A DNA stretch of 64,000 nucleotides. Source: Bacteroidales bacterium (lineage in GTDB: Bacteria; Bacteroidota; Bacteroidia; Bacteroidales; UBA932). Location of the stretch: NCBI GenBank assembly GCA_017395045.1, contig JAFPWG010000022.1:1-64000 (forward strand). The letters run 5' to 3'. The notes beneath the pieces were generated by a model. The model did no database searches. It saw only the letters and a program-made list of their open reading frames with translations, and had not been told where the DNA came from. Positions 48,191-64,000 of the stretch are shown here, in pieces; within the stretch, counting starts at the first letter, position 1, and each line of letters starts with the position of its first letter. A program made the translations under genes and the position numbers.

Positions 48191-51100
48191 CTACACTTCC
48201 ACGAATTCATCCTCCCCGTTCTCCCGGATATACCACAAGGTGGCGGAAACGGAAGGATGCCCCATCGCCCTATAAAGGGCGGCGTAACGGGCTACCTGAT
48301 CCCTGTGCTTCCGCTCCGGCTGCCCGAACTTGTAGTCCACCACCGCGACGGACCCGTCGTCCCGGATGACGACGCGGTCCGGACGGAGTTCCCCGCCGTC
48401 GGTGTCAATGAGAGAAACCTCGTTCAGGATGTGCGCCCCCTCGACGGTGAACCAGCCCCGCCCGGCCACCGAAGAGACCTCTTCCTCCAGGAAACGGAGC
48501 GTATGGTCCCTGTCACCTCTGGGAAGGGCACCGGATGCAACGGCGCGGTCCACGGCCTTCGGAAGGTCCTCCGGGACCGTAACGGCCGCAAGGATGTCGT
48601 GCAGGACCAGACCGCGGAGCCGGTTGGAGGCGTCCGGGCCCACGAGGCCGTCGGGGCCGAAATAGTCGGCCGCGTCGCGGCTGAACCGGAGGCGGCCGCG
48701 GTCACCGGCCGGGAAGGACGGATACCCCGTCCGGAGCGGCATGGCCGGCCCGGCCTTCCGCTCCAGCGAGCCGAAGTCGTACATCGTCCCCACGTGATGG
48801 CTGAGCGTCCCGACAAAGCCGTAGAGGACCTGCGAAAGATTCTTCCAATCGGCGGGGGTTTTGTCCCTGACCGCCTGGAGCACCTTCTGCGGAGGCTCTT
48901 TCGCAATGACCTTCAGGCCATATTTCGCCCGAGTCATGGCCACGTAAAAGACGTTGATGTTGTCAATGAACTGGAGCTTCCGCTCGCGATGATAGTCCTC
49001 CGCGAACAGCGTACTCTCGCTGGTTCCGCTCAGTTCCACGTGATACACGCCGTCGGCGAAGGCGGCCAGCGGAGTTCCGTCCACGTCCGGACGGCACCAG
49101 TAGGACGAACCTTTGTATAAGGATACCTTTTCCGCGAACGGAAAGATCACGTACGGGAACTCCAGTCCCTTGGATTTGTGGACCGTCATTACGCGGACGG
49201 CCGATCCGGTCTCGGGCGAGGCGATCTTGGGGTCCGCATCCGCCCACTCGCGGAGGAAAGCGGACAGGTCGTTCCCGCGGGAGGCGGACCAGTCCAGCAG
49301 AAAGTCCATGAAAGACTGGATATAAGGCACTTCCGCCTCGAACGTATCCGGATCGGCCGTCCGCAGGTCGCGAAGGAGTGATTCGGCCAGGTCCGTCAGC
49401 GAGTGATAATGGTCGGGGATCCGGATGTCCATGGACCGGGCCAGGAAGCCGGCCACGGATGCGTGCCCTTCCGTGTCGGGCGAGTCCACCAGCGACAGCT
49501 GGGACACGAGCCGCCGCACGGTCACGGAGGATTTGACGAACAGCGAATCGTCGGACACGACCGGAATCCCTTCGGATACGAGCCGGGCCGCGATTTCGGA
49601 TCCTTCCTGGTTGCCCCGGACGAGGATGGCGACGTCACCATACTGACCGCCTGCGGCAATTACGCTCCGGACCGAGGCGACGATCTCGTCCATTTCGGCG
49701 TCGTAGTCCTCCAGGAAGCGGATGTCGACGGATCCCTCGGCCGGGTCCTTGAAGCAGACCTGCTGGTCCACGTCCCGGTAGATGCGGCTCACGTCATTCC
49801 CGCCCAGAAGGGCATCCAGCTGCTCCGCCGCATAAGGGAAGAACGCATTGTTGAACGCCACGATGGCCTTGCAGGTGCGGTAGTTGCCGTCCAGCACCTT
49901 CTCGGCTCCCGGTCCCAGGCGGAAATCCGCCCGCACGCCGGAATCCAGCAGGTGCCAGTCGGAGCCGCGCCAGCGGTAGATGGACTGCTTCACGTCGCCC
50001 ACGACCAGGTTGTCGAACCCGCCGGCCTCGCTGTTCAGCAGCAGCGGACGGAAGTTCTCCCACTGGATCGTGGACGTATCCTGGAACTCGTCCAGGAGGA
50101 AATCCTCGAACCGGACGCCCAGCTTCTCGTACACGAACGGGGCGTCTGACCCGTCGATGATGCCTTTCAGGATGGTGTTCGAGTCCTCGATGGACAGGAC
50201 GTTCCTTTCTTTCTGCACCTCGTCGAAGGCCTTCCGCAGTTCTGCCGCGATGCCCAGCGTATAAGCCTGGCCGCCGATGAGACAGGCGGTCCTGTACTGG
50301 CGGAAACGGTCTCCGAACAAAGCGCAGAAAGCGTTCAGCGGCCCCTCCAGGCTGCCTTCCAGTTCCACGCGGTACTTGTCTTTGGATTTTGCGAACCACT
50401 TCGAGGGATCGGGCGCCTTGTCCAGGAACGAGTCCGTTGGCAGGCCGACGGCGTCGTGCGGGCCCAAGTCCCGGAAGCCGTACAGGGCTTTCAGGAAGCC
50501 GCGGTTGCTGTCGGCCGGGTCCACGCCATGCTTCTCCAGCACGTCCAGGGCCGCCTGCGCGGCGTTCCGGACGTCTTTCACGAACGCATCGGCAAGGGCG
50601 GCGCAGCCTTTCCGGATCTCCTTCAGATGATCCTTCGCATAGGCGGCGTCCTCGTCGATGCCGTAACGACGCACGGCTTCCGCATGGTCCATGGACTTGA
50701 GGTTTTTGGCCATCTCCTTGAGGGGAGGCTCCAGGTTGAAACGGCTGCCGCTTTCCAGGCCGGCTTTCACGTTGTCGGTCAGCCAGTCCAGGAGAACCCG
50801 GTCGTCCTCCGTGAGGCCGTCCAGGATCCGGTCCACGCTTTCCTCCACCAGGGCGGCCTTGTCCAGTTCCACCTGGTAGGAAGCGAACTGTCCGATCTCC
50901 CGGGAGAAGGCCCGCAGCGTCTGCTGGAAGAACTTGTCGATGGTGGACACCGCAAAGGAGGAATAGTCGTGGAGAATGCCCCCGAGCTGCCCGGAAGCCC
51001 GTTTCTGCAAGGCCTCCGCCGTCGGGAAAAGACTCGGGACGAAGTCCTCGTAATAAGGCGATTCCGCCGGTTTTGACGACAGGACGAACAGCTCGTCCAG

Positions 51101-51262
51101 AATGCGGTGTTTCATCTCCTCGGTGGCCTTGTTCGTGAAGGTCACGGCGAGGATGTGGCGGTAGGCCTGCGGATCCTTCTTCGAAAGAAGCAGGCGGATG
51201 TATTCACGGGCCAGGTTCCAGGTCTTTCCCGAACCGGCCGAAGCTTTGAGAACCCGGATCAT
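48191..51262 (-). CDS. addA: AddA-type UvrD-family helicase-nuclease
   Basis: ATP-dependent helicase subunit of a RecBCD-like double-strand-break repair enzyme. 1023 residues. Walker A ASAGSGKTWNLA at the N-terminus, TFTNKATEEMK (motif Ia), LLDEFQDTSTIQW (motif II), VMTVHKSKGLEFP and VAMTRAK (motifs V-VI). The C-terminal PD-(D/E)XK nuclease shows RPDRVVIRDDGSVAVVDYK and a following QVARYAALY. Overlaps addB by four bases. Confidence 0.92.
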   Translation of the reverse strand: MIRVLKASAGSGKTWNLAREYIRLLLSKKDPQAYRHILAVTFTNKATEEMKHRILDELFVLSSKPAESPYYEDFVPSLFPTAEALQKRASGQLGGILHDYSSFAVSTIDKFFQQTLRAFSREIGQFASYQVELDKAALVEESVDRILDGLTEDDRVLLDWLTDNVKAGLESGSRFNLEPPLKEMAKNLKSMDHAEAVRRYGIDEDAAYAKDHLKEIRKGCAALADAFVKDVRNAAQAALDVLEKHGVDPADSNRGFLKALYGFRDLGPHDAVGLPTDSFLDKAPDPSKWFAKSKDKYRVELEGSLEGPLNAFCALFGDRFRQYRTACLIGGQAYTLGIAAELRKAFDEVQKERNVLSIEDSNTILKGIIDGSDAPFVYEKLGVRFEDFLLDEFQDTSTIQWENFRPLLLNSEAGGFDNLVVGDVKQSIYRWRGSDWHLLDSGVRADFRLGPGAEKVLDGNYRTCKAIVAFNNAFFPYAAEQLDALLGGNDVSRIYRDVDQQVCFKDPAEGSVDIRFLEDYDAEMDEIVASVRSVIAAGGQYGDVAILVRGNQEGSEIAARLVSEGIPVVSDDSLFVKSSVTVRRLVSQLSLVDSPDTEGHASVAGFLARSMDIRIPDHYHSLTDLAESLLRDLRTADPDTFEAEVPYIQSFMDFLLDWSASRGNDLSAFLREWADADPKIASPETGSAVRVMTVHKSKGLEFPYVIFPFAEKVSLYKGSSYWCRPDVDGTPLAAFADGVYHVELSGTSESTLFAEDYHRERKLQFIDNINVFYVAMTRAKYGLKVIAKEPPQKVLQAVRDKTPADWKNLSQVLYGFVGTLSHHVGTMYDFGSLERKAGPAMPLRTGYPSFPAGDRGRLRFSRDAADYFGPDGLVGPDASNRLRGLVLHDILAAVTVPEDLPKAVDRAVASGALPRGDRDHTLRFLEEEVSSVAGRGWFTVEGAHILNEVSLIDTDGGELRPDRVVIRDDGSVAVVDYKFGQPERKHRDQVARYAALYRAMGHPSVSATLWYIRENGEDEFVEV

Positions 51263-54123
51263 CGGCCGCAGATCATTTTGAAATCACAGAATTCACAGGT
51301 TTTCCGTTCCTCCGTCCGGCGGAAAGGCACGGACGGATCCGTCATCTCCGCGAGGAGGTCCTTGAGGCGTTCCCGCGTCAGGCGGGCGAATTCGGGACTG
51401 GCCGGACGGTCCCGGAGCGGGTCCGTGAACAGGCGGGAAACCGAATAGATGGAATTGACCACGGGGCGGCCCCTGAGTTCCTCCCGTTCCTGCGCCAGGA
51501 GGCCGTACAGGAACAGCTGAAGGGCAATCTTCGGCCGGCCGTTGTTCGTGGGACCGAAGAGTTTCCCCACCACCGAAGCCGCATTGTCATCGGTAATGTC
51601 GATGTCGTCCTGCTCCACCTTGCCCGTCTTGTAGTCCACGATGCGGGCCTCGCCGCCCAGGTAACTGTCGATGCGGTCCGCATAGCCCTTGATCCGGAAG
51701 CCTTCGAACGTTCCGGTCATCTTCGTTTCCAGGAACAGGATCCGGAAACCTTCCGATCCGGACTGTGCGAGGAGGTCCCTGTCGTGCCGGAGCGTCCGGA
51801 GGACATATTCGACGATGACCTCTTCCACGACGAGGTCGCGGCCGGAGACATCGACCGTCTGCATCTCCCGGAGGATGAACTCCCGGACGCGGGCCTTGAC
51901 GGCCTTCCGGTCCTTCAGCATCGCGTCCAAGGCTTCCGCTGTCAGGACCTTGCCCCTGTAGGGCCCGTACAGCGCCTGCATGGTGCTGTGGTACACGGTC
52001 CCCAGGGTGCCGGCATCCATCGACTCCAACACCTCGTCTTCGGTACTCAGGCGCTTGATGAAGGAGTAGTAGAACTTGGCCGGGCAGTACAGGTAGTTCT
52101 GGAGGGACGAGGCGGAGAGCTCTCCTTCGCGGATGATGTCGATGTCGGCCTGCGACTTGGGAATGGCGTCGGCCTCGGGGGCCAGCTCCATCCGGGACGT
52201 GGCGACAAACCGCTCCAGGGGCACCCGGTAATGGTATTCCAACTGTTTCACATACCGGCTCTCCTCCCCGGTCTTGAGACCTTCGGTACGGCTGTCCGAT
52301 ACCAGCCACACATGCTCCGCACGCTGGATCATCCGATAGAAATAATAGGCCCACACACTGTCCTGATATTCGAAGGTAGGCAGTCCGAAGCCCTTGCGGA
52401 GTTCCGGAGGGACGAAAGAGGCACTGCTGCTCCGGCGCGGGAAGGTCCCTTCATTCGCGGAAAGAAGGATGACGTTCCGGAAATCCAGGGCGCGCGTTTC
52501 CAGCGGGCCCATCACCTGCAAACCTTCCAGCGGCTCGCCCCGGAACGGGACGGCCTCACCGGACAGCAGTTCGTCCAGAAGGCGCAGCCAGGTGGCGGGA
52601 AGGACGTCCAGGTCGATGCCGCCGAGCAGGTTCAGCGACTGCAGGCACCGCTTTGCAAAATCCAGTTCCAGAAGCATTTCCTCCACGCCGCGGAGTTTCC
52701 AGCCTACATAGCTCACGATGTCGGAGAGGTATTGGACCAGCCGGCGGTTCTGGCCGGCATCCGCCTCCTTTGGATGTGTCACGACAGGCCGGAAGACCAG
52801 GTCCAGCAACGGCCCGCCCTGCAGGTCCTCCTGCGGAATGTAATATTTCGCCTGGTTCTTGACTTTCAGGACGGCCTGTTCTTCCGCCGGATCCAGGACG
52901 GCGCGGAAGAGGCTGTTGGTGAAGATGGAACGCACCTCGCGGTGATAGAAATACCAGCCGCCCGCCTTCTCCCGCAGACGCAGCTGCAACGCGGAAAGGG
53001 AGGACAGGAGGGAATAGACGGCTCCGCCCGTGAGGGGGCAGCCCATCGTCACGTTGATGCTGTCGTACTCCGACGGAATCGAGTTCAGCAGGGGCATCAG
53101 GAGGTTCTCGTCGGGCAGGATGAAGGCCGTTTCCACCGGATTGTCCGTGTTGCAGCGCCCGAGGATGGCGGGGGCCAGTTTCGCCTGCCCCACGGAAGAA
53201 GGGACGCTCACGACGTGGAAGGAGGGCTCCCGGAGGCCTTCCGGGTCCACCTGGAAGGCATTCGGAAAGTCACGGACATTGTCCCGCATGAAGACTGACG
53301 ACTTGTTCCGCGGGTCGCGCACGGCCTCGGAGACGTAGTCCCAGCAGAACTCCGCCAGGCCCGCGTCGCGGAGACGCCGGAGGACCGTCTTCTCGCACTC
53401 GTTCAGGGCATTCAAGCCCACGAAAACGTACCGGCGCACCTGCGGAAAAACGCCCGACAGGATGTCGGTTACGGACTCGCCTCCCTTCAGGCGCTCGGCC
53501 AGGTGGCGGTACACCATCCCCTCATACGCCATCCCCCGGGCATCCAGACGCCTGCGGAAATCCGTATAAAGCGGGTAAAGGATGTTCCAAACCTGGAGAA
53601 AGCGGGCTTTCACCGTAGCATCGTCCGTGTCCAGGCGGACGGTCAGGCGGCCGTTGCGGTCGCGGAAATGGTCCACGAAATGCAGGATGGCCTCCCGCTG
53701 GACGTCGGACAGGTGGCTGTAGTCGTCCTGGATTCCCTTGAAGTCCGCCACGTCGGTGAACAGGTCCTCCGCGTCCACGAGGAACTTGTCCACATCGCCG
53801 AAGTCAGCGAGGATCACCTCCCCCCAGAAGATGAACTCGTCCAGGGGCTCGGCCTTCGGATACACGGCCTTGTAGGACTCGTACAATTCCAGCAGCAGAC
53901 GGATTCGGTCCGTCGCCTCTCCGCCATACACCTGATAGAAGAAGTCATTGATGGTCAACGACATCGGCGCACGCATCGGTCGAGTGGCCCCGCCTTCCCG
54001 CAAGAGGTCGCCCAGATACTTCCGGAAGAAGACGGACGACCGTCGGTTCGGGAAGACGAAGCACGTCTGCCGTATGTCCGTTGCCAGGTAATGGGCGGCA
54101 ACCTGTCTCAAAAATGGTATCAT
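51259..54123 (-). CDS. addB: AddB-type nuclease subunit
   Basis: Partner of AddA; 954 residues from ATG 54123. N-terminal inactivated helicase-like region beginning near [16 protein letters not shown], with no Walker A. The C-terminal nuclease has [20 protein letters not shown] followed by KTGK. Four Cys that could hold a 4Fe-4S cluster, as in AddB, are seen: [10 protein letters not shown] and [10 protein letters not shown] at the extreme end. A GTG 39 bases further upstream is in frame but less likely. Confidence 0.9.
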
Positions 54124-54242
54124 GCGGTAAAAATACGGAGTTCTTTTGCCAAACTGTGGCACAACCGTCGTTTGTCCCCTACTAAATTAGTCAAACTTTC
54201 AAAACATTTCAAGAGGCTGATAGTAAATCCGGCAGAATTGAT

Positions 54243-57353: not shown

Positions 57354-58028
57354 CTATTCCACGAAAACCTTTCCGGCGCCCCAGGCCTTGCCCACTACCC
57401 CGCCGATGGAGCGGTAGGTCATGGAAGCGGCGTCGAAGACAATGGGTTGGAGCTTCTCCAGATCCACCTTGCCGTCCGTCAGGATGCGTTCGTCGGCGCT
57501 CATGTTCACCACCTCACCCACGAGGATGCCGTCGGCCCAGCTCACGACCTTGCATTCCAGCGTGAGGGGATACTCGTTGATGATGGGAGCGTCCACATTC
57601 GGGCTGGGCGTGACGGAGAATCCTGCCTTGGCGACCTTGTCCGGAACCTTGTTGCCGCTCACCAGGCCGAAATAGTCGGATTCGGCCACCGTGCGGATGT
57701 CGGCGAAACTCACGGTAAAGGCGCCGGTGCGCTCGAGGTTCTCCGTGGTCTTGTGCTTGGACATGCTCACGACGATCTGTTTGTAGTCGTACTGTCCTGC
57801 CCAGGCGGCCATCATCACGTCGGGCGTGTGGTCCTTGTCCCAGGTGGCGATCATCACGCACGGCTGGGGCGTCGTCACGAGAGCGTGGTCCGCGCCGAAA
57901 TTCTTGCGTCCGGCCACCTCTTTGAAAGTTTCTTGGGTGCTCATTTCATTCATGTTTTGGTTGTCAGCGTTTCCGCAGCCGGCCAGGGTCATCATCGCGG
58001 CCAGCACTGTGTAAAATACTTTTTTCAT
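57354..58028 (-). CDS. Flavin-reductase-fold protein with lipoprotein signal (copy 1)
   Basis: 224 residues. Residues 1-18 look like a lipoprotein signal with lipobox LAGC. Then comes an FMN-binding split-barrel of the flavin reductase family (ATWDKDHTPDVMMAAWAGQ, FTVSFADIRTVAESDYFG, ECKVVSWADGILVGEVVNM). Relatives are normally cytosolic. An internal ATG near residue 26 would remove the signal, but the start overlaps the DUF1295 stop by four bases, favouring the long form. If exported, it may use flavin outside the membrane. Confidence 0.8.
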   Translation of the reverse strand: MKKVFYTVLAAMMTLAGCGNADNQNMNEMSTQETFKEVAGRKNFGADHALVTTPQPCVMIATWDKDHTPDVMMAAWAGQYDYKQIVVSMSKHKTTENLERTGAFTVSFADIRTVAESDYFGLVSGNKVPDKVAKAGFSVTPSPNVDAPIINEYPLTLECKVVSWADGILVGEVVNMSADERILTDGKVDLEKLQPIVFDAASMTYRSIGGVVGKAWGAGKVFVE

Positions 58029-58876
58029 ATCAATATCCTTGTCTTTTTCCTGTATTCCGAATAGCCCGGCTTGTTCGCCAGCTGGCGCCGTTCCATCATC
58101 GGAATGCTGATGAAAAGGAAGAGGGCAGTCATGGCCACGGGCCCCAGGATGAACCAGTCGACCCCATGGGCCGATGCGTACATCACCCAGACGCCCCACC
58201 ACATCAGGATCTCTCCGAAATAGTTCGGATGCCGCCCATGCTTCCAGAGACCTGCGTTGCACACCTCTCCCGGATGGTCCGTCCGGAACTGATGGATCTG
58301 CGTATCCGCGACCAGTTCGATATTGGCAGCGGCCACGCACAGGACGAAGCCTGTCCACAGGATCCATCCGGCAGTGCCGGGCTCTTCGATAAGCCGGAAT
58401 CCCGGCAGCATGCAGGCGAACACCAGGAGCGTGGGCATCATGTTCAATCCGAAGAAATTCGTGATGTGGAACAGGAATGGGGACAGTTCCCCGCGATAAC
58501 GGGTATACCGCCAGTCCTCGTGTCCCAGGCCCTTGAACGTATGGACCCAGTTTCCGGTCAGCCGGATACCCCAATACCACACCGCAGCGAGCAGCAGGAT
58601 GACGGGCAGGGAGAATGAATCCTGGACCAGGGCCCATCCGGTGAACATCACCGGCGGCGCGACGCTCCAGTAGGGGTCATAGACCGACACGTTCTCATAC
58701 AAAAGGCCGTCGCACCAGATGACGACCGTTGCGACGACATCCGCCAGGAGCAGGGCCCATACGTCCGGCATCACTCCCCGCGCCTTTTGGCAGACCAGGA
58801 TTCCGACAACCGTCGCGACGGCATACATCGCCGTGACCAGAACCAGGCTGCCACCCTTTCCAAGGTCCCTCCTCAT
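58025..58876 (-). CDS. DUF1295 membrane protein (steroid 5-alpha-reductase-like)
   Basis: 283 residues with seven to eight membrane helices. The C-terminal signature GLWKHGRHPNYFGEILMWWG is that of DUF1295, related to 3-oxo-5-alpha-steroid dehydrogenases and isoprenylcysteine methyltransferase. Substrate unknown. The ATG at 58876 overlaps the upstream small gene by four bases; longer in-frame extension is antisense-like filler. Confidence 0.88.
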   Translation of the reverse strand: MRRDLGKGGSLVLVTAMYAVATVVGILVCQKARGVMPDVWALLLADVVATVVIWCDGLLYENVSVYDPYWSVAPPVMFTGWALVQDSFSLPVILLLAAVWYWGIRLTGNWVHTFKGLGHEDWRYTRYRGELSPFLFHITNFFGLNMMPTLLVFACMLPGFRLIEEPGTAGWILWTGFVLCVAAANIELVADTQIHQFRTDHPGEVCNAGLWKHGRHPNYFGEILMWWGVWVMYASAHGVDWFILGPVAMTALFLFISIPMMERRQLANKPGYSEYRKKTRILI

Positions 58877-59106: not shown

Positions 59107-59502
59107 CTAAGCAAAACTCTCCGGCAGGCAGATGTTCTCCACCTCCCGGGCAGCTGCAAACAAAGGGGCTATCTCTTCATCCCTGAACCCTGCTATCCCG
59201 CATCCGATCCTTGTCACAAAGAAGAAACGCTCGGGATGGGACCTGGCATAGTCGATGAACCCGTCCACATAAGGTTTGATCGTCTCCACCCCGCCCTGCA
59301 TGGTCGGAATGGCATACGACTGCCCCTGAAGGCCGACGCCGCAGCCCCAGACGGCCCCGAACTTCCTGAAGGCCACATGGGCCGCTCCACCCCCGTGCAT
59401 CCCCGCCAGGTTCGAGCCGAAGACGAAGACTTCATCGGCCTTGAGTTCTGTGATCCGCTCCGGAGTGAAATCGGGACGGGGAATGTCGTTATAGGTTCTC
59501 AT
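59107..59502 (-). CDS. Macro-like conserved protein (A1S_2505-type)
   Basis: 131 residues. FVFGSNLAGMHGGGAAHVAF, then GCGVGLQGQSYAIPTMQGG, and FFFVTRIGCGIAGF match a widespread family with a macro-domain-like fold, often found in phages and near NAD-related genes. ADP-ribose or nucleotide binding is inferred. The ATG at 59502 follows the -7 box by 11 bases; an in-frame ATG at 59526 lies upstream of it. GC here looks like the host. Divergent from the MazG-type gene. Confidence 0.7.
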   Translation of the reverse strand: MRTYNDIPRPDFTPERITELKADEVFVFGSNLAGMHGGGAAHVAFRKFGAVWGCGVGLQGQSYAIPTMQGGVETIKPYVDGFIDYARSHPERFFFVTRIGCGIAGFRDEEIAPLFAAAREVENICLPESFA

Positions 59503-59513
59503 CGTGGTTTTTA

Positions 59514-59521
59514 CAAAGATA
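59514..59521 (-). promoter_or_regulatory. -7 box TATCTTTG of the macro-like gene
   Basis: Minus-strand match, 11 bases before the ATG; predicted leader about seven bases. Confidence 0.6.
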
Positions 59522-59557
59522 ATCATTTTTGGGATAGTATAATGCCGGACGAATTCT

Positions 59558-59565
59558 TATCTTTG
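59558..59565 (+). promoter_or_regulatory. -7 box TATCTTTG of the MazG/DUF2075 pair
   Basis: Plus-strand match, 21 bases before the ATG at 59587. Confidence 0.6.
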
Positions 59566-59586
59566 CGTATCAACCAGAATGACAGA

Positions 59587-59919
59587 ATGATGAACGACAT
59601 TGAGACGATCCTGGCCGAGCTCCGCAAGTTCAACCGGGAACGGGACTGGGACCAGTTCCACAACGGGAAAGACCTTGCTGTCGCCATCTCCATCGAAGCC
59701 GGAGAGTTGTTGGAAGCCTTCCTCTGGAAATCCCCGGAAGAAGCCAAGGTCGACAAGGTCCGCGAAGAACTGGCCGACGTCCTTAATTATGCTTTCCAGA
59801 TGGCAGACCGGTATAACCTGGACATCAAGGAAATCATGCTGGAGAAAATTCGGAGGAACGCAGAAAAGTATCCGGCTGAAAAGGCAAGGGGTTCAGCGAA
59901 AAAGTACAATGAAATTTAG
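59587..59919 (+). CDS. Short MazG-type nucleotide pyrophosphohydrolase
   Basis: 110 residues, single domain of the all-alpha NTP pyrophosphohydrolase superfamily (RS21-C6/MazG-like). Metal ligands lie in SIEAGELLEAFLW and REELADVLNYAFQM. Expected to hydrolyse (d)NTPs or modified nucleotides. It is different from the two-domain MazG at 24808. It lies directly before the GIY-YIG/DUF2075 gene and probably forms a two-gene unit with it. A second ATG follows immediately at 59590. Confidence 0.9.
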   Translation: MMNDIETILAELRKFNRERDWDQFHNGKDLAVAISIEAGELLEAFLWKSPEEAKVDKVREELADVLNYAFQMADRYNLDIKEIMLEKIRRNAEKYPAEKARGSAKKYNEI

Positions 59920-59923
59920 GCAT

Positions 59924-61753
59924 ATGGCATCTCCGGTTTTCTTTACCACGGCTGAAGACACAGGCTTCCTTCAGGATTTCCAGAACAGGATTCTCCATGA
60001 TTCCCGGATCAAGCAACCCGAGACCTTCTTGAATTATCCCATCGTCTATATCCACTACTGGCCTTCACAAACCATCTCTTATTTTGATAAGAAGACGGGG
60101 TTGGAAAAAACCTCGACAAAATATGACGTCTATGTCGGCGAGAGCAATGACTTGATCGGAAGGACGAACCAGCATTATGATACCGGTAAAAAGGCCGCTT
60201 CAGAACAAGAAGCCTGGCAATACAGCCTTGTGAACATCAAGCAGAACAATATCATCCCGTATATCATCGTAATCGGGTGTGAGCATTTCAACAAGTCTTT
60301 TACGCTGGATGTCGAGAACAGACTGATAGAATATGTCGTTGCCATGCAGGACAGTGTTCGCTGCTCCCTCAATGGCAGAGGCAATCCCCAAGGAGCCTAT
60401 TATCCATATGAAGAGTTTGATTCTGTATTCAGTAAAATCTGGACAGGCCTGAGAAAGATCAACCGTAACCTGTTCCTTCCAGAAACCAGGATTAAGGATT
60501 CAGCCATTTTCAAGGCCTCCCCGTTAAAAAAGCTTAAGCCTGAACAGATTGAAGCGAAGGAACTGATCATCCGGAAAGTTTGCGACGCATATGAAAGCGG
60601 AAAGGAAGGGCAGTTGATTTTCGTTCAAGGTGAAGCCGGAACGGGTAAAACCGTTTTGACCACATCAACCTTCTATGAACTGATCAAAAGAGGTGAAGAA
60701 ACACCCCTTCCCGGACAACCTCACTTCCCCAAGATGAAATGCCATCTGATGGTCAATCATGACCAGCAGGCGCATGTGTATGAGCAGATGGCCAAAAGAT
60801 TGAATCTTGGAGAAGATACTGTCAGCAGGCCGACTTCATTTATCAACAGGTTCAGCAAGGACAACAGAGTCGACGTAGCCTTCATCGATGAAGGGCACCT
60901 GCTTTGGACACAGAAACACCAGGCTTATTCAAGCGATGCGGCCAATCAGCTGGTCGACATCATGGAAAGGGCCCGCGTTACCGTCATCATGTTTGACGAA
61001 TACCAGGTCCTTACTACTGAAGAGTATTGGGAACCGGCCCTCCTCGAGAAGTTCAAACAGTTATCCATCTCGCAGGACAATTATATCAGACTCAACCACC
61101 AGCTGCGAATGGAGTGCTCTCTTTCGACCATGGTGTGGATCAATGACTTTGTCCTGAATAAAAGGATTACTCCGTTTATCCCTGACAGCAAGTACGAAGT
61201 CAAATCCTTCGATTCGCCCAAGCTCCTTCATCAGGCCATCACCAAGCTTGCGTCAAAAGAAGACAGCAAGCTCTCCCGTCTGGTAGCCACATACGACTGG
61301 GAGTATAACCAGAAATCGACACCCGCCGAGGGAGGATCCTGGGCAGTCCACATCGGCAACTGGAGCCTGCCTTGGAATTATGAAATCGAGCGGAAGATGA
61401 CCTTGAAAGAAAAAAGGAGGATCAGATCGCTTGCCTGGGCGGAACAACCTCAGACGATCGACGAAATCGGATCGACCTTCACCGTCCAAGGATTTGACTT
61501 ATCCTACGTCGGGGTTATCCTCGGACCTTCCGTACAATACCGGGACGGGCACGTTGTCTTTTGTCCCGAGAACAGCAAGAACGCAAAAGCAACCAGAAAC
61601 AGGACGCTGGCCGACGGATCCAAAGTCCAGTTCGGAGAGACCTTCATCCGCAACGAGGTCAAGGTTCTCCTGACCCGGGGCGTCAAAGGTCTTTTTATCT
61701 ATGCCTGCGACCCGGCCTTAAGGGAAGCCCTGAAAGAGATAGCGAAAATCTAG
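59924..61753 (+). CDS. GIY-YIG nuclease domain fused to DUF2075 P-loop ATPase
   Basis: 609 residues. The N-terminal GIY-YIG-like nuclease (about 38-140) has VYIHYW, YDVYVGES, Arg80 and ENRLIEYV. The DUF2075 ATPase (about 205-600) has Walker A GEAGTGKT (236-243), Walker B AFIDEGHLL (319-327), and the family motifs VQGFDLSYVGVILG and NEVKVLLTRGVKGLFIY. It probably couples NTP-driven nucleic-acid remodelling to cutting. Hand counts of two 60-base lines give about 47% GC against 55-65% in lines counted elsewhere, suggesting transfer. An ATG at 59909 (overlapping the upstream stop) is an alternative start. Confidence 0.88.
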   Translation: MASPVFFTTAEDTGFLQDFQNRILHDSRIKQPETFLNYPIVYIHYWPSQTISYFDKKTGLEKTSTKYDVYVGESNDLIGRTNQHYDTGKKAASEQEAWQYSLVNIKQNNIIPYIIVIGCEHFNKSFTLDVENRLIEYVVAMQDSVRCSLNGRGNPQGAYYPYEEFDSVFSKIWTGLRKINRNLFLPETRIKDSAIFKASPLKKLKPEQIEAKELIIRKVCDAYESGKEGQLIFVQGEAGTGKTVLTTSTFYELIKRGEETPLPGQPHFPKMKCHLMVNHDQQAHVYEQMAKRLNLGEDTVSRPTSFINRFSKDNRVDVAFIDEGHLLWTQKHQAYSSDAANQLVDIMERARVTVIMFDEYQVLTTEEYWEPALLEKFKQLSISQDNYIRLNHQLRMECSLSTMVWINDFVLNKRITPFIPDSKYEVKSFDSPKLLHQAITKLASKEDSKLSRLVATYDWEYNQKSTPAEGGSWAVHIGNWSLPWNYEIERKMTLKEKRRIRSLAWAEQPQTIDEIGSTFTVQGFDLSYVGVILGPSVQYRDGHVVFCPENSKNAKATRNRTLADGSKVQFGETFIRNEVKVLLTRGVKGLFIYACDPALREALKEIAKI

Positions 61754-61882
61754 CGTCGAATGCAACTGATTGATAAACAATGCTTTATAACATTTACCCC
61801 GAGAAAAACGGACCAGGCTGTTCTCATTAACTCGTTGATCCAGAGTAACTTCCACTTTACGTCAAACCGGATAGTCATAGCC

Positions 61883-62476
61883 ATGAACAGAATTATCACC
61901 ACTTTACTGATCGCCATTACGATGATGAGCTGCGGAAACAACACCAAGAAGGCGGAAGCCACGGCAGATAGGCCGTGGCAGGAAATCGCGCCGACGGAGA
62001 TTGAGCTCAATCCTCTCCAGATGATTGACAAGGACTGGCTGGAGGTATCGGCCGGAAAAGAAGGGAAGATGAACCTGATGACCATTTCCTGGGGAACCAT
62101 CGGCGAGCTTTGGAACAAACCCGTCTTTACCGTATTCGTGTCCACGAGCCGATACACGCATCAGTTCATGGAAGAGAACGACTACTTCACGGTCACGCAC
62201 TTCCCGGAGTCCATGCGGGACAAGCTGGCCTATCTGGGCCGCGCCTCCGGCCGGAATGAAGACAAGGTGGCCGGTGCCGGCCTGACCGTCGAATTCACCG
62301 AACTGGGCAACCCCATCTATGCCGAGGCCGACCTGGCCATCGAATGCAGGAAGATCTATAGCCAGCAGTTCGACGCCGACCTGATTCCGGCGGAGCAAAG
62401 GGCGTGGTATGAGAAATCAGGCTTGGGCATCCACCACATGTACATCGGCGAAATCGTCCACGTCTGGAAGAAGTAG
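61883..62476 (+). CDS. Flavin-reductase-fold protein with lipoprotein signal (copy 2)
   Basis: 197 residues. Signal MNRIITTLLIAITMMSC with lipobox MMSC (Cys17), then a flavin reductase-family split barrel: MTISWGTIGELWNKPVFTVF, RYTHQFMEENDYFTVTHFPE and ending GIHHMYIGEIVHVWKK. Related cytosolic proteins lack the signal. It follows the DUF2075 gene by 129 bases in which I see no clear promoter box. Not closely similar to copy 1. Confidence 0.8.
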   Translation: MNRIITTLLIAITMMSCGNNTKKAEATADRPWQEIAPTEIELNPLQMIDKDWLEVSAGKEGKMNLMTISWGTIGELWNKPVFTVFVSTSRYTHQFMEENDYFTVTHFPESMRDKLAYLGRASGRNEDKVAGAGLTVEFTELGNPIYAEADLAIECRKIYSQQFDADLIPAEQRAWYEKSGLGIHHMYIGEIVHVWKK

Positions 62477-62934: not shown

Positions 62935-64000
62935 TCACATATCCTGATGATTCCAGTACCGCTTTACGTCCTGCCAATGGTAGTAGGGAGCGCAGTCCGT
63001 CTCCACGGGAACGGAGGTTTCGTTCTCATTCAGGAGGAACTTGACCAGCACGTCGTCCGACCCTGCCTTGCGGTAGAAAACCAGCTGGATGTTCGCCGCC
63101 ATGGGGATGAGTTTGTCGATGGAGATGTGCTTGTGCAGGTTCTCCAGGTCCGTCGTTCCGCCCATGGCTTCCTTCAGGCCCATCAGATAGGCCAGCGGGA
63201 GCACGGAGCCGTCGTGGCTGAAGCGGAGCGTCAGTGCGGGCTCGCCCGTGCGGATGACCCGGTCGGCAATGCTGACGATGCTGTCGCGCACCTCCATCTG
63301 CTGCAGGTATGCAGGAGTGGAACCGGGGATGAGACCGCATTCCAGCAGGATTGCGGCATTGCACGCCTTCCAGGCCCCGAACAGTTCTTCCTTGGTGAAC
63401 AGGTCCGTGAGGGAAAGGTTCAGCTCTGGCAGGTTCTGAAGGTCCGAGGACACGTTGTAAAGACACTCCAGGAATGAGTCTACATCGATGAACGATCTGG
63501 CCCTGGAGACGTCCGTAAACAGGGTTTTCATCAGACGGGAAACATCCACGGCCTTCGAGAAAAGCTTCTCGGCCTGTTTCTCCAGACCGGCCATGGCCGG
63601 TGTTTCTTCCGGCCTTACCCTCCGGTTCCCGACCACGAAACGCATGTCGCGGTTGCTGGCGTTCATCCGGATGGACATCGAAGGGTTCAGGCCCTGGAGC
63701 TCCTGGCAGAAATAGAACATGCTGATCATGCAGCGTCCTGCGGTCGATGAGCGGGCATCGGCCTTCAGCGGCTGCGAAAGCAGCGACGGGAAACGGTCGT
63801 ACATCCGCCGGGCGATCTCCTGATGCTGGCGCCCGCCGAGCGCGGTCAGGTCGCCGTCGCGGTTAAAGGCATCGGCATATCCTTTCTGCAGGATTCCGAG
63901 GACTTCGGCCCCCTTCGGTTTGAGGATGCCCAGCTGCGCCGCGGTATCCAGGGCCCAGATGGCAAAGGTATAATGGCCGTTGTCTTCCATGTACCGGGAG
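62935..64000 (-). CDS. Histidine phosphatase, MINPP/phytase-like, N-terminus outside the window
   Basis: At least 354 residues, open to the window edge. The first visible residues are SRYMEDNGHYTF, which fit the end of the catalytic RHGxR motif with the RHG cut off. The acid catalyst region LRFSHDGSVLPLAYLMGL (His-Asp) is present. QHQEIARRMYDRFPSL and the alpha-domain in between match branch-2 histidine phosphatases such as Bacteroides MINPP, which remove phosphate from inositol phosphates. Signal peptide cannot be seen. The call depends on the missing N-terminus. Confidence 0.8.
   Translation of the reverse strand, partial: SRYMEDNGHYTFAIWALDTAAQLGILKPKGAEVLGILQKGYADAFNRDGDLTALGGRQHQEIARRMYDRFPSLLSQPLKADARSSTAGRCMISMFYFCQELQGLNPSMSIRMNASNRDMRFVVGNRRVRPEETPAMAGLEKQAEKLFSKAVDVSRLMKTLFTDVSRARSFIDVDSFLECLYNVSSDLQNLPELNLSLTDLFTKEELFGAWKACNAAILLECGLIPGSTPAYLQQMEVRDSIVSIADRVIRTGEPALTLRFSHDGSVLPLAYLMGLKEAMGGTTDLENLHKHISIDKLIPMAANIQLVFYRKAGSDDVLVKFLLNENETSVPVETDCAPYYHWQDVKRYWNHQDM

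Follow-up and report, generated by a model that had tools for sequence, protein, structure and literature searches.

A MazG-like pyrophosphohydrolase gene paired with a GIY-YIG nuclease-helicase gene in a Bacteroidales bacterium: a candidate mobile defence module

The first 64,000 nucleotides of contig JAFPWG010000022.1 of a Bacteroidales bacterium, hereafter the window, contain two plus-strand genes separated by a gap of four bases. The first encodes a short MazG-like protein, and the second a 609-residue protein in which a GIY-YIG nuclease region is joined to a helicase domain. The features of the locus are presented in Table 1. The initial annotation had described a MazG-type gene four bases before a GIY-YIG/DUF2075 protein, with motifs intact; this description is confirmed by the open reading frames (ORFs), by the Pfam families PF12643 (MazG-like) and PF09848 (SLFN-g3_helicase, which we take to be the renamed DUF2075), and by alignments of relatives. 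The pairing of MazG with nuclease-helicases is well supported. The pair possibly represents a type of bacterial defence module that has yet to be described, and a defence role is likely. Other loci and genomes are given by our own labels (L and G).

Table 1. Coordinates of the gene pair, its domains and its surroundings in the window.
Feature	Position	Strand	Basis or remark
mazG-like gene, 110 residues	59587..59919	+	Predicted dCTPP1-type nucleotide pyrophosphohydrolase; E37, E40, E61, D64, W21, H25 and K87 intact
GIY-YIG nuclease / SLFN-g3 (superfamily 1-type) helicase gene, 609 residues	59924..61753	+	ORF, Pfam and alignment
GIY-YIG nuclease region, residues ~39-160	60038..60403	+	Sub-threshold PF01541 at residues 69-135; invariant residues in 37 relatives
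SLFN-g3 helicase domain, residues 230-596	60611..61711	+	PF09848
Bacteroidota-type -7 promoter-like motif TATCTTTG, 5' of mazG	59558..59565	+	Alone not significant
-7 promoter-like motif TATCTTTG of the divergent flanking gene	59514..59521	-	
Dip in guanine-cytosine (GC) content spanning the pair	59500..62000	no strand	Pair 48.9%, window 59.6%
Left flanking gene, 139 residues, outside the module	59107..59526	-	No Pfam match at E 0.1
Right flanking flavin-reductase-like gene, outside the module	61883..62476	+	Pfam

The window MazG matches PF12643 with an E-value of 4e-19 and 69.1 bits, over the cut-off of 27. Its best match in the PDB is dCTP pyrophosphatase 1 (6sqw, E 1.4e-17), with an alignment that runs through the WxQFH, E..E, EEL.DV and RGSA.KY stretches. 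All seven residues listed for it in Table 1 are invariant among 23 aligned MazGs, E37, E40, E61 and D64 being the acidic metal-binding ones. Judged from its sequence, the protein is a member of the short dCTPP1-type MazG-like family. An E. coli-type MazG was ruled out, since the score with the NCBIfam model PRK09562, 16 bits, is far below the 208 required. At three other loci (L005:12082-12381, L012:12093-12392 and L040:10993-11313), a second short protein directly after MazG matches the MazG profile weakly (about 8e-5).

The 609-residue protein matches PF09848 with an E-value of 9.7e-85 and 285.4 bits against a cut-off of 24, over profile positions 2-354 of 354. For the GIY-YIG family PF01541, the Pfam cut-off is 22.6 bits; the window protein falls short of it with 16.5 bits (E 0.011), and the relative L049 exceeds it with 24.1 bits. 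Residues Y42, Y70, G72, R80, H84, E131 and N150, which we assign to the GIY-YIG signature and to catalytic roles, are invariant in the 37 aligned relatives, as are G236, G239, G241, K242, D322, E323, Q522, G523 and R585 in the helicase part. No S24 domain was found in the window protein by Pfam. When it was compared with solved structures, phmmer gave no credible match, and a profile gave only ATPase-core matches, e.g., ORC1 (best 9e-5), with a GIY-YIG homing endonuclease at E 0.31.

A scan of genome contigs with the 609-residue protein as query yielded 47 loci. L002-L039 are 38 full-length GIY-YIG relatives, including near-copies such as L006/L008 and L007/L011/L012, and MazG adjoins 35 of them: 34 directly, plus a partial MazG running off the contig end in L018. 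It also adjoins one helicase fragment (L040) and a broken helicase gene (L048), and is absent from another fragment (L041) and from all six Lentilactobacillus helicases that lack the GIY-YIG part (L042-L047). In the window's family, where loci were located via the helicase alone, MazG lies next to 11 of 11 other matches; in its genus, this holds for 8 of 12 other matches (G362, G350, G314, G332, G322, G298, G339 and G372).

The adjacency was also counted across wider sets of genomes. PF12643 has 13 matches in 12 of 148 Bacteroidota genomes, and nine of the 13 adjoin an SLFN helicase ORF, one of these ORFs being a 231-residue fragment (G212). By our own estimate, about 0.002 adjacencies, far below one, are expected under random placement. 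PF09848 occurs in 23 of the 148 genomes, with an adjoining MazG for 8 of 23 matches, and most of the helicases without MazG score far lower against our profile. In the clostridial phylum of G412, a genome picked as the centre of the sample for holding a pair, PF12643 is common (108 of 199 genomes) and PF09848 is rare (nine matches in 8 of 199 genomes). MazG is directly adjacent to three of these nine matches (G412, G458 and G421) and one gene off in a second G458 locus; none was seen near the remaining five. The two G458 loci (L234 and L235) lie about 57 kb apart on contig C29, one with an intervening HNH_2 gene. Non-conserved adjacency had been named by the initial annotation as grounds for giving up its idea, yet the adjacency spans Bacteroidota, Bacillota, one actinomycete and one archaeal plasmid.

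Clustering of the N-terminal parts produced two large classes: class A, with 51 GIY-YIG ORFs, and class B, with 29 ORFs whose R.D...G, ELKQW, HPS.Q...Y pattern we read as PD-(D/E)XK-like. PF10107 is weak in class B, under its cut-off in three scanned proteins. Among ORFs of at least 500 residues, MazG lies within 1.5 kb of 43 of 50 in class A and 24 of 29 in class B, a set biased by plasmid loci L060, L065 and L066, which were opened since both genes had matches. MazG is upstream in 20 class A pairs, downstream in 22 and divergent in one; the corresponding class B numbers are 22 upstream and two downstream. A C-terminal extension with an A(A/C)G, G.SM, TIK.Y pattern, presumably the LexA/UmuD-like cleavage site and Ser/Lys pattern, is present in 13 proteins, four of class A and nine of class B, and Pfam S24 matches were obtained in four of ten scanned proteins (L049, L050, L051 and L056). 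The S24 fusions suggest that some versions are wired to a RecA-type damage signal.

Trees of the helicase and of MazG were obtained from 65 pairs. In the helicase tree, which joins some long branches according to program warnings, a single branch (98/99) parts class B from class A. The MazG tree, which has 116 columns and many unresolved forks, needs eight class changes, at least five of them forced by well-supported branches. The window MazG sits in a 15-row group of eight class B and seven class A pairs (100/100); the window helicase is placed among class A helicases, beside clostridial ones. In comparison with seven class B pairs of the genus and family, the window pair presents 72-80% identity in MazG and 26-31% in the helicase, and in comparison with four clostridial class A pairs, 45-56% and 54-56%, respectively. 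Slow MazG evolution was considered as a cause and cannot account for both identity patterns. The four S24-bearing class A helicases cluster with class B helicases (100/100), and therefore the GIY-YIG part may have moved too.

Individual loci present the same picture. In the sister genome G298 (L158), a comparison of the left flank only reveals the same neighbourhood (bcp 95%, nnrD 76% and the left flanking gene 81% identical) and, 1.8 kb beyond the shared left-flank genes, a MazG (79%) with a class B helicase (25%); this pair is possibly an independent insertion at a hot spot. L024:7702-11773 and L027:7866-11743 each hold a single MazG flanked by two nuclease-helicases, one of class B and the other of class A. 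Trees and identities thus indicate that the nuclease-helicase partners have been exchanged while the MazG adjacency was kept.

The pair seems to move between genomes. No other non-overlapping 2,167-base stretch in the 64 kb has as low a GC content, and the source genome has a single copy of the pair. The 609-residue protein is matched at 1e-20 in 13 of 121 genus genomes, a patchy distribution, and in 12 of 149 family genomes, own genome included in both counts. Its only close relatives in the genus are in G362 (85%), G350 (60%) and G382 (a fragment, 67%). A phage gene was rejected, given only four of 50,697 phage records match, none above 27.8% identity; one viral contig, with MazG adjoining, was found by a pattern-based scan. 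Near-copies on plasmids were rejected as well, since a DNA search with the pair covered only 11% of it, in one record. At the protein level, 37 of 72,556 plasmid records match the 609-residue protein, and seven were opened. L062, with MazG, follows type I restriction genes. L063, a mobilizable Lactiplantibacillus plasmid, holds Nudix, PLD-helicase-DUF3427, MazG and GIY-YIG-helicase genes, two unknowns and DUF2357/PD-(D/E)XK, its PLD-helicase-DUF3427 protein having a SauUSI-like architecture. L061, a class A locus, adjoins cas6 and cas10, and L064 is close to a Nudix gene, DUF262 and a restriction endonuclease; L061-L064 are the four best plasmid loci. L060 carries MazG and a broken helicase, L065 is an archaeal plasmid locus with MazG, and L066 presents MutT, MrcB_N, MazG, nuclease-helicase and type I genes.

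In L105 and L106, MazG adjoins an HNH_2 endonuclease rather than an SLFN helicase, and L235 presents the order MazG, HNH_2 protein, SLFN helicase. L237:6616-9662 encodes a Nudix protein (1.4e-18), a 275-residue SRA/HNH-like protein and a distant SLFN-g3 helicase, with gene ends that touch. In the whole 5.6-Mb genome, no protein other than this 275-residue one matches SRA (E 0.0078) or HNH_2 (E 0.0077) at E 0.01. The three genes have the look of an unannotated modification-dependent restriction operon.

The initial annotation had proposed a search for a defence-island setting, and several loci do lie among restriction or CRISPR genes. The 117 genes lying no more than two ORFs from 32 GIY-YIG loci (L004-L039 minus L008, L011, L012 and L018), a near set only, include Pfam families NOV_C (4), MrcB_N (3), PLDc_2 (3), NUDIX (2) and Fic (2). 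They match 171 PADLOC families at E 1e-10, against 141 for 115 control genes from the same loci, more than 6.5 kb away; among the families listed, the controls also included CRISPR, Dpd and methyltransferase genes. For Bacteroidota, the numbers are 109 families for 139 near genes and 80 for 128 controls elsewhere in the same genomes. These differences, being in family rather than gene counts, are suggestive at most.

Compared with PADLOC models, the window protein matches Nhi (nuclease-helicase immunity) at 2.4e-8, AbiO at 9.1e-8, PDC-S41 at 1.9e-4, mad8 at 0.0014 and PDC-S14 at 0.0016. Like it, Nhi and AbiO are single-protein nuclease-helicases, but the window scores are weak and confined to the helicase part, at profile positions 186-377 of 470 and 181-384 of 468 rather than full length, and the window protein has a GIY-YIG nuclease and a MazG gene fixed alongside. 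The PDC-S41 match covers residues 511-593, short of membership. In all five class B relatives scanned, two stretches match PDC-S41 (1e-13 to 1e-20), and four of the five match AbiO and Nhi at 8e-11 to 2e-17, whereas the GIY-YIG relatives L122 and L063 match PDC-S14 (L122 up to 1.1e-10) and not Nhi/AbiO at 1e-3. PDC-S41 and PDC-S14 are candidate defence proteins of PADLOC, the "S" presumably denoting a single-gene candidate; their models have no MazG partner, and the window scores against them are low. The best reading is that the nuclease-helicase is distantly related to Nhi/AbiO. The search against defence profiles that had been suggested earlier was thus borne out for the helicases, related ones matching Nhi, AbiO and PDC-S41, but not for MazG.

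Other known systems resemble the pair in part. SauUSI-type type IV restriction also combines a nuclease and a motor ATPase with a neighbouring small nucleotide pyrophosphohydrolase, as in L063. MutT is reported to adjoin SauUSI homologues (PMC7641849), and SauUSI to comprise a PLD nuclease, a superfamily 2 ATPase and an SRA reader (PMC7913695); the window protein, however, has a GIY-YIG nuclease, a superfamily 1-type helicase and no detected reader. Human DCTPP1 is the best PDB match of the window MazG, but the latter is bacterial and the operon partner of a nuclease, its substrate being presumed from homology. The helicase falls in PF09848 together with that of vertebrate (group 3) Schlafen proteins, whereas no Schlafen core nuclease domain is seen in the window protein. 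The initial annotation knew of no named system with exactly this pair, and our searches agree: no paper on a MazG and GIY-YIG/SLFN-g3 pair was among the matches listed in full-text searches, and, going by titles or the beginnings of abstracts, none of the five papers found to mention DUF2075 concerns it.

The initial annotation had also given mazG its own promoter. A -7-type motif does lie upstream, but the motif class is not in excess: TANNTTTG, which we take to be the Bacteroidota-type -7 promoter motif, has three matches in the 3.2-kb locus against 1.05 expected, and 18 of 200 shuffles reach three, i.e., the number is not beyond chance. Sigma-70-like matches likewise occur, and a separate promoter for mazG is plausible only. 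Regarding the flanks, the left 139-residue protein is present in 12 of 41 genus genomes. A gene resembling the right-hand flavin-reductase-like gene lies about 1.2 kb left of the pair (57354-58637, minus strand), with an 84%-identical relative 2 kb from the MazG pair of L131. Immediately right of the window (L115:4250-5287) is a second histidine-phosphatase-like gene, 45% identical to that at 62935-63990. Two big overlapping genes at 48191-54162 (minus strand; 967 and 1023 residues) have an AddAB/RecBCD-type helicase-nuclease appearance; the second matches GajB (UvrD-like) models at 1.2e-29 and the first has weak Cas4-like matches, and they are probably a housekeeping recombination complex.

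The explanation we tentatively favour, as a possibility somewhat short of even, is that the two genes form a horizontally mobile module directed against invaders, in which MazG is the partner that handles the nucleotide pool. By analogy with its relatives, the helicase would engage foreign DNA as it invades or replicates, and this DNA would be cut by the GIY-YIG domain in Nhi/AbiO fashion. MazG would contribute to this task through the nucleotide pool, its substrate being dCTP or modified dCTP if it acts as dCTPP1 is reported to (PMC7162842). In the version we prefer, MazG would hydrolyse non-canonical dCTP, e.g., 5-methyl- or 5-hydroxymethyl-dCTP, and would thereby keep out of host DNA the modified base by which targets for cutting are recognised. 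MazG would then be a sanitiser that renders a modification-dependent nuclease safe to keep, and could serve any nuclease partner. This modified-dCTP mechanism, which we infer, is the boldest and least tested step. A shared pool-cleaning role sparing host DNA is suggested by the constancy of MazG with exchangeable nucleases, by the single MazG between two nucleases in L024 and L027, and by the recurrence of Nudix/MazG enzymes near modification-dependent nucleases.

Several observations weigh against this explanation. No modified-base reader (SRA, EVE etc.) was found in the 609-residue protein by Pfam at E 0.1; a divergent or new kind of reader domain is possible. In L237, the SRA and HNH_2 matches are each under the Pfam cut-off, and the helicase is from a distant clade (8e-13 against the profile). 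The window MazG matches no family of PADLOC-DB v2.0.0 at E up to 1, and the defence enrichment of the neighbourhoods in the PADLOC scans is not cleanly separated from controls. Given MazG is absent from three of the 38 GIY-YIG loci (L020, L023 and L038), two of the four best plasmid loci (L061 and L064) and four of the 12 genus matches (G306, G325, G321 and the G382 fragment), it is not strictly needed. Most MazG-like genes of the sampled clostridial phylum lack an SLFN helicase and, being common as well, have other roles.

The initial annotation had supposed that one protein removes or senses nucleotides and the other cuts, which fits the domains. One form of this idea, which we consider unlikely, gives the pair two effectors: the nuclease-helicase would cut phage DNA, and MazG would hydrolyse dCTP or other deoxynucleotide triphosphates (dNTPs) during infection, depriving phage replication of precursors. 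Defence enzymes such as dCTP deaminase and dGTPase do deplete dNTPs, and a dCTPP1-type MazG would act on dCTP itself. MazG is also named among predicted, unvalidated defence domains by DefensePredictor, which credits Burroughs et al. 2015 for the predicted roles of several listed domains (PMC13092281). However, MazG is small and stand-alone and shows nothing that resembles an infection switch, and its constancy through nuclease exchange is more in keeping with a shared partner than with an effector; the evidence leans to a pool partner over simple dNTP depletion, without settling it. Genome maintenance, in which a nucleotide sanitiser and a nuclease-helicase would process damaged or stalled DNA with no defence role, the S24 variants being tied to the SOS response, is likewise improbable. 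The LexA/UmuD-like pattern in 13 aligned class A and B proteins, the S24 matches in four of ten scanned and the ordinary neighbours at many Bacteroidota loci speak for it, but the window protein has no S24 domain, and the pair is patchy, low in GC, sometimes plasmid-borne, prone to partner exchange and kin to defence models.

A toxin-antitoxin-like or selfish pair strikes us as quite unlikely; it would persist by addiction, the nuclease-helicase being harmful to the host whenever MazG neither binds it nor alters the pool. In its favour are the short genes, which overlap or lie close together on one strand, the mobility and the small constant partner, yet solitary nuclease-helicases exist (L020, L023, L038, L061 and L064), and the catalytic residues of MazG are invariant, and therefore it is an enzyme rather than merely a binding protein. 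That the genes are chance neighbours or hitch-hikers with no shared function is hardly credible: although MazG-like genes are common in some phyla, both gene orders occur across phyla, the adjacency is kept through partner exchange, and the adjacency counts contradict it.

A wider proposal, which we regard as doubtful, is that the mobile module belongs to an uncatalogued modular defence family, in which a constant dCTPP1-type MazG accompanies interchangeable nuclease-helicases (GIY-YIG or PD-(D/E)XK, with or without a self-cleaving S24 switch) and would be a chemical immunity protein, marking "self" via the nucleotide pool and not via DNA methylation. Nuclease-helicase defence proteins are known; we did not find described a pyrophosphohydrolase that stays constant beside exchanged ones. 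New here are two nuclease classes, each with and without the S24 protease, for which the MazG and helicase trees are in conflict. If MazG does clean the host pool, discrimination of self from non-self would rest on DNA precursors instead of DNA marks, and there would be a testable reason for the recurrence of MutT/MazG genes by modification-dependent nucleases. A bacterial function would also inform the origin of the helicase domain named after Schlafen proteins.

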